Shown here one piece after another: positions 29,492 through 29,760 of a stretch of DNA of 35,463 bases. Source of the stretch: a virus. The DNA lies in IMG/VR virus record IMGVR_UViG_3300031227_000201, positions 1 to 35,463 of that record. One strand, given 5' to 3'. The translations under genes and the position numbers were made by a program. The notes under the pieces were generated by a model that saw only the letters and a program-made list of their open reading frames with translations, had not been told where the DNA came from and searched no databases. Numbering within the stretch: the first letter of the stretch is position 1; every line of letters begins with the position of its first letter.

Positions 29492-29547
29492 CCGAGCTGC
29501 AATTGTGCATCAGTCTCGGACGGAGACACTTGTCTGACAGGTGTCTC
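29492..29547 (+). ncRNA. two hairpins between tnpB and the first repeat (possible guide-RNA scaffold)
   Basis: CCGAG (29492-29496) pairs with CTCGG (29515-29519). GAGACACTTGT (29523-29533) pairs over 11 bp with 29537-29547 across a 3-nt loop. The second stem ends inside the first three bases of repeat 1. In TnpB elements the guide RNA scaffold lies exactly here; in a CRISPR locus this would be leader or tracr. Function inferred. Confidence 0.45.
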
Positions 29548-29760
29548 TCCTCCACATACGAGGGGAGGTTTGGATGAACATGAGTGAGTATCTGTTTGAT
29601 TGGCCCCTCTCCTCCACATACGAGGGGAGGTTTGGGATTATCACTGTCGACTCGATCGATTTCGTGGACTCTCCTCCACATACGAGGGGAGGTTTGGACA
29701 AACCGTCGTCAATGCTGCGGCACCAGACGGCTTCTCCTCAATACGCAACGGGAGGGTTGG
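29545..29760 (+). CRISPR. short CRISPR-like array: 3 identical repeats, 1 degenerate, 3 spacers
   Basis: Identical 29-nt repeats at 29545-29573, 29607-29635 and 29669-29697, exactly 62 nt apart, and a degenerate fourth copy at 29731-29760. Spacers at 29574-29606, 29636-29668 and 29698-29730 are all 33 nt and unrelated to one another. The repeat starts CTCTCCTCC, has a partly palindromic core (CCTCC...GGAGG) and ends GGTTTGG. Repeat and spacer lengths are like type I-E arrays. The decayed repeat marks the distal end, so the leader side faces tnpB. No cas1, cas2, cas6 or cascade gene is in the window. Confidence 0.85.

Follow-up and report, generated by a model that had tools for sequence, protein, structure and literature searches.

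A viral TnpB beside a CRISPR array, best read as part-way toward a CRISPR enzyme

The evolutionary route from a transposon nuclease, guided by a single continuous RNA, to a CRISPR enzyme in which tracrRNA and crRNA are separate is an open question. Some 50 independent associations of TnpB with CRISPR have been inferred (PMC12669027), the association has already been worked out for Cas12n (PMC11641405), and viral TnpBs near CRISPR arrays have been reported (PMC12607003). Given these intermediates, viral ones included, the scaffold-plus-repeat RNA that a preliminary description of the present locus had put forward as a new kind of hybrid would belong to a known class. The locus lies on a virus contig, of which we analyzed a stretch of 35,463 nt (the window).

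The tnpB gene, the adjoining array and its recurrence in viral relatives

The rightward operon that contains the locus begins with tnpB, and its start region reads as follows.

28217-28189, minus strand: predicted divergent sigma-70-type promoter (consensus match)
28238-28266, plus strand: predicted sigma-70-type promoter before tnpB, TTGACA-17-TATAGT (consensus match)
28317-29483, plus strand: tnpB, starting at ATG 28317 or 28320 (ORF open from GTG 28293)

The two promoters match the sigma-70 consensus at 11/12 and 12/12 positions. They stand back to back (28189-28266) between a leftward and the rightward operon, with inverted AAAGGAAA/TTTCCTTT motifs, an arrangement that resembles an early or lysogeny switch. 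Methyltransferase and helicase genes occupy 24886-27218; the helicase is >70% identical to proteins of several other viral contigs, and this tnpB is absent from the stretches of those contigs that the comparison covered. A search with the gene at 30818-31906, as a bridge to related phages, gave no match, and no DNA-level relatives were found among GenBank phages.

The predicted protein (P0001, 396 aa) has OrfB_IS605, Cas12f1-like_TNB and HTH domains above the Pfam cut-offs, by which it classes as an ordinary TnpB. The RuvC triad is intact: the catalytic residues D198, E284 and D365 (P0001 numbering) are present and invariant, and the zinc-ribbon cysteines are all present as well. Its nearest natural proteins with solved structures are the TnpBs of ISFba1 (E 1.8e-53) and ISDra2 (5e-45), with RdCas12n (E 9.5e-27) and LaTranC much further away; the LaTranC match (phmmer, E 3e-21) is confined to residues 251-379. 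A fold search likewise places P0001 nearer plain TnpB than Cas12n (the predicted structure is moderately confident, with pLDDT 74 and pTM 0.51), and neither sequence nor fold groups it with Cas12n. A Cas12u4/Cas12f label from PADLOC (best, Cas12u4) was rejected, since plain IS607 TnpBs score equal or higher.

Downstream of tnpB lies a short array of three identical 29-mers at 29545, 29607 and 29669 (period 62) and a degenerate fourth.

29545-29573, plus strand: repeat 1 (CTCTCCTCCACATACGAGGGGAGGTTTGG), which forms its own 8-bp hairpin
29574-29606, plus strand: spacer 1, 33 nt
29607-29635, plus strand: repeat 2, identical
29636-29668, plus strand: spacer 2, 33 nt
29669-29697, plus strand: repeat 3, identical
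29698-29730, plus strand: spacer 3, 33 nt
29731-29760, plus strand: degenerate terminal repeat (CTTCTCCTCAATACGCAACGGGAGGGTTGG)

An alignment search of viral contigs with TnpB yielded 80 TnpB loci, four of which have an array adjoining tnpB: L171 (TnpB 52% identical), L172 (49%), L195 (38%) and L211 (36%). These arrays have 29-nt palindromic repeats with a 61-62-nt period, and in all five arrays, that of the window included, repeats are 29 nt and spacers 32-33 nt long. Such repeat and spacer lengths, together with a central palindrome, are the geometry of type I-E arrays. A few other viral loci have periodic repeats of different kinds that are not CRISPR-like. The TnpB loci of the 485-kb phage LR745208 and of Microcystis phage LMM01 have no array, nor does that of L173, a near sister, within its locus. 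Among 60 chromosomal relatives, taken from Chloroflexota and the class of an actinomycete, none has an array by tnpB (within 1.5 kb, where the flank reached that far).

In a tree of 133 TnpBs (a quick search, with long branches), the window groups with L171 and L172 (clade support SH-aLRT 96), though the three are only about 50% identical, and the array occurs three times inside this one clade. L195 and L211 fall outside it on long branches; L195 may be placed near the clade, and L211 lies elsewhere. With this placement the array label changes about three times on the tree, and the effector recurrently adjoins a CRISPR array, as V-U-like systems do. L172 differs in layout: scaffold and array stand together upstream of tnpB (L172:2167-2452), and the tnpB C-terminus is shortened, without the scaffold-coding part, which indicates that the RNA module has moved relative to its gene.

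No target of a window spacer was found by amino-acid-level patterns in viral contigs or among GenBank phages. Spacer 2 of L211 (L211:3847-3878) matches 25/26 positions of its own contig at L211:2259-2284, where a terminator-like hairpin precedes the L211 tnpB, and differs further at the margins of the match; it looks as if the spacer were aimed at a sister phage. The exact core of the window repeat does not occur in the viral contigs, and 400 Chloroflexota genomes, which may not be the host's group, contain neither the window nor the L172 repeat at up to 3 mismatches. Bacterial genomes do contain similar 29-nt repeats, but these were rejected as a type I-E host match, since the loci have no TnpB; the similar repeats of L039 and L076 are without apparent cas genes and look like intergenic palindromic repeats. 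Those at L039:3500-6400 are dispersed CTCCCC..GGGGAG palindromes with a CRISPR-like 62-nt period, among ordinary genes and with no cas apparent. The repeat search also came upon a Chloroflexota MAG whose CRISPR arrays are very long (L014 and L031, JAKOUW010000260.1).

The omega-RNA scaffold, the guide-slot hairpin and possible anti-repeats

The scaffold and the hairpin that follows it comprise these features.

29436-29523, plus strand: omega-RNA scaffold (covariance model R1), which begins inside the 3' end of tnpB
29448-29451/29486-29489, plus strand: helix A of the scaffold
29458-29462/29473-29477, plus strand: helix B of the scaffold
29492-29519, plus strand: stem 1, the omega-RNA terminal stem (CCGAG/CTCGG)
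29520-29523, plus strand: ACGG, corresponding to the AACGG that closes ordinary elements of this clade on the right (an ordinary guide would start at 29524)
29518-29526, plus strand: possible anti-repeat GGACGGAGA, able to pair with TCTCCTCC of the repeat around one bulged C
29522-29526 (GGAGA; in L172, GCGGG at 2257-2261): sites in the scaffold pair comparison
29522-29548, plus strand: stem 2 (12 bp, 3-nt loop), which fills the guide slot and extends over 4 bases of repeat 1

Model R1 was built from 15 omega-RNAs of ordinary relatives, with the window excluded. These RNAs align well, show compensatory changes in 27/32 predicted pairs and end in the terminal stem and, after it, A.AACGG. Where copies of an element could be compared, the sequence common to both ends at that point or within one base in several pairs, and AACGG is therefore the right end of the element, where the guide begins. 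R1 matches the window modestly (23 bits; E 1.2e-4 in 66 kb, 3.6e-6 in 2 kb), and an Rfam search gave sub-threshold matches only. The model also places the scaffold downstream of tnpB in L171, L195 and L211 and upstream in L172, and finds it in array-less L173. The scaffold is shortened in the same way in the window, L171 and L172, with identical spacing (34 nt inside helix A and 10 nt inside helix B). Compensatory changes occur in three helices among these scaffolds.

The 61 nt between the tnpB stop and repeat 1 (29484-29544) had been described as filled by two stems, the second an 11-bp stem running into the repeat. Folding recovers both, at 29492-29519 and 29522-29548. Stem 2 has 12 contiguous pairs, G-U pairs included (11 without the closing G-U), and its 3' arm, reaching 29547-29548, takes in 3-4 bases at the start of repeat 1. 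No other contiguous stem in the window is as long, and 11 bp are reached at only three other places. The 90-nt segment as a whole folds moderately better than its shuffles (z -2.0, 8/200 as good), and 29380-29640 gives z -3.7. That an omega-RNA scaffold precedes the repeats holds, in that it ends at 29523, the repeats start within about 20 nt and the association recurs; only stem 1, however, belongs to it. Stem 2 is not part of the scaffold, because it begins at the conserved scaffold end (ACGG), which is where an ordinary TnpB would have its guide. A hairpin also occupies this slot in L171 and L172 but stops about 30-50 nt short of their first repeat, so that contact of hairpin and repeat (a 3-nt fusion) is seen in the window only and is not conserved.

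The guide slot folds at -16.7 kcal/mol in the window and -14.5 in L171, compared with -2.4 to -11.0 at 17 ordinary loci; L172 (-10.0) is matched in stability by 3/17 of these, and array-less L173 gives -5.4. A free guide, derived from the flank and directly after the scaffold as in ordinary TnpB elements, is thus not what the window has (-16.7 kcal/mol slot). We infer that the hairpin is a derived plug that ends the scaffold.

Pairing between the 40 nt upstream of the first repeat and the 5' part of the repeat was compared with dinucleotide-shuffled controls. The window anti-repeat (GGACGGAGA/TCTCCTCC) is weak alone (p 0.087 in 40 nt, 0.23 in 100 nt), as is that of L211 (p 0.087), and L172 has none that is significant (p 0.29). 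In L171, GTGGGATTCAAC pairs with GTTGAACCCAC (p<0.001), and in L195, GCGGAACAT, which is the 3' end of the scaffold itself, pairs with ATGTTCCGC (p 0.006). Combined across the five loci by Fisher's method (hand arithmetic) the probability is roughly 1e-4. The five loci as a group somewhat favor anti-repeat pairing, and the window alone would not. A scan of the window for an anti-repeat to the whole repeat returned only the repeats themselves.

Proposed mechanism and rival explanations

On this sequence evidence the locus is best read as a TnpB part-way toward a CRISPR enzyme. We consider it fairly probable that a phage TnpB has turned miniature CRISPR effector, using its omega-RNA like a tracrRNA and drawing guides from the array. 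A single transcript would carry tnpB, the scaffold (29436-29523) and the array, which is plausible since TnpB can process its own mRNA to omega-RNA (PMC10278001). The scaffold would no longer enter a guide, with stem 2 plugging the former guide slot. After processing, TnpB would bind the scaffold as a tracrRNA-like RNA and be loaded with guides that the repeat-spacer units supply, held to the scaffold by pairing between its 3' end and the 5' part of the repeat; competing phages or plasmids would be the likely targets. We favor this reading because the scaffold homology comes from a model built without the window, the arrays recur, the short scaffold is shared and the guide slots hold hairpins, and further because of the L172 arrangement, the anti-repeats of L171 and L195 and the intact RuvC residues. 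It is weakened by the weak anti-repeat of the window (p 0.087) and the non-significant one of L172, by the modest scaffold match (23 bits), by the I-E repeat and spacer lengths, by the lack of a target found for any window spacer, by the position of L195 and L211 outside the clade on long branches, and by the array-less near sister L173.

Accounts of stem 2 as a terminator, a transposon end or a product of chance are the least probable. The preliminary description had named a terminator or a transposon end as the alternative that would overturn its view, and a stable stem located after an ORF might suggest either; we give this scarcely any credence. Stem 2 is followed by CCTCCACATACG, with no T-run, so it is no intrinsic terminator, and a terminator scan omits it. 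As to a transposon end, related element copies in this TnpB clade end at AACGG, before stem 2, and several annotated relatives accompany a serine recombinase of IS607 rather than being hairpin-ended IS605 elements. It is also very improbable that an ordinary TnpB element, with the 20 nt after 29523 as its guide, was inserted by chance before an array and that stem 2 is accidental. The scaffold does end at ACGG as in ordinary elements, but the guide would sit locked in a 12-bp hairpin and arrays recur in relatives.

The main rival, which we hold to be somewhat unlikely, is that a cas-less type I-E-style mini-array borrows the host's Cascade against rival phages, with tnpB and its omega-RNA as uninvolved neighbors. 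The array has the I-E geometry (29-nt repeats, 32-33-nt spacers, a central palindrome), phages are established to carry cas-less mini-arrays that target related viruses (PMC6858448, PMC11656645), and the imperfect match of L211 spacer 2 to its own contig is what a sister-virus target would give. The repeated adjacency to TnpB, the clade-wise retention and the L172 arrangement are left unexplained, however, as are the guide-slot hairpin and the anti-repeats at the scaffold end; no host array with the window or L172 repeat was found in the 400 Chloroflexota genomes (which may not be the host's group), and similar 29-nt repeats occur elsewhere without apparent cas genes. More doubtful is a reading in which TnpB and the plugged scaffold work with crRNAs from type I-E-like repeats whose spacers a host I-E system could acquire and use. 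Such a system would be a hybrid across classes: a Class 2 nuclease could share its array with Class 1 I-E machinery of the host, and scaffold, hairpin and first repeat of the window may then form one natural single-guide RNA. A double use, with crRNAs of the I-E-like repeats serving host Cascade and, by pairing with the omega-RNA, guiding TnpB too, is quite improbable: it would accommodate both the repeats and the scaffold-side anti-repeats, but the same 400 genomes, with the same caveat on host group, revealed no host I-E system through the window or L172 repeats.

Comparison with known systems

On the reading of a TnpB part-way toward a CRISPR enzyme, a single TnpB group offers several states for comparison. 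The guide slot is free in ordinary relatives; L173 has a scaffold, and no array was found within its locus; the window, L171 and L172 combine a shortened scaffold, a hairpin in the guide slot and an array. Phages may, on this view, retain such intermediates to attack other mobile elements, and the locus offers very small candidate effectors. TranC (LaTranC) is likewise a transposon-CRISPR intermediate by name, and its RNA is reportedly an omega-RNA split into tracrRNA and crRNA; full-length similarity is lacking, the window protein aligning to LaTranC over residues 251-379 only. Ordinary IS607/IS605-type TnpBs share the intact RuvC, a scaffold overlapping the tnpB 3' end, the conserved terminal stem and the ACGG end, whereas the window has lost an inner scaffold hairpin and has a guide-slot hairpin, then CRISPR repeats.

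Cas12n (type V-N, formerly V-U4/C2c9) resembles the locus as a small TnpB-like effector by an array, with its tracrRNA inside the effector mRNA (PMC11641405), but the window protein is nearer plain TnpB, and against the Cas12u4 profile it does not outscore plain IS607 TnpBs. Virus-borne mini-arrays (PMC6858448, PMC11656645) also have few spacers, in a viral genome and without adaptation genes; here TnpB and an RNA scaffold adjoin the array, and a host-array match was seen in none of the 400 Chloroflexota genomes. For landfill viruses, V-U4-like nucleases and viral TnpBs close to CRISPR arrays are described (PMC12607003); a virus-encoded TnpB of about 400 aa with an array nearby is common to them and the locus, while a scaffold boundary, anti-repeat and plugged guide slot are not described in the passages drawn on here. 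To the known TnpB-CRISPR associations the locus adds, at the level of sequence, a resolved scaffold boundary, a guide-slot hairpin and a clade-wise comparison, over five loci.
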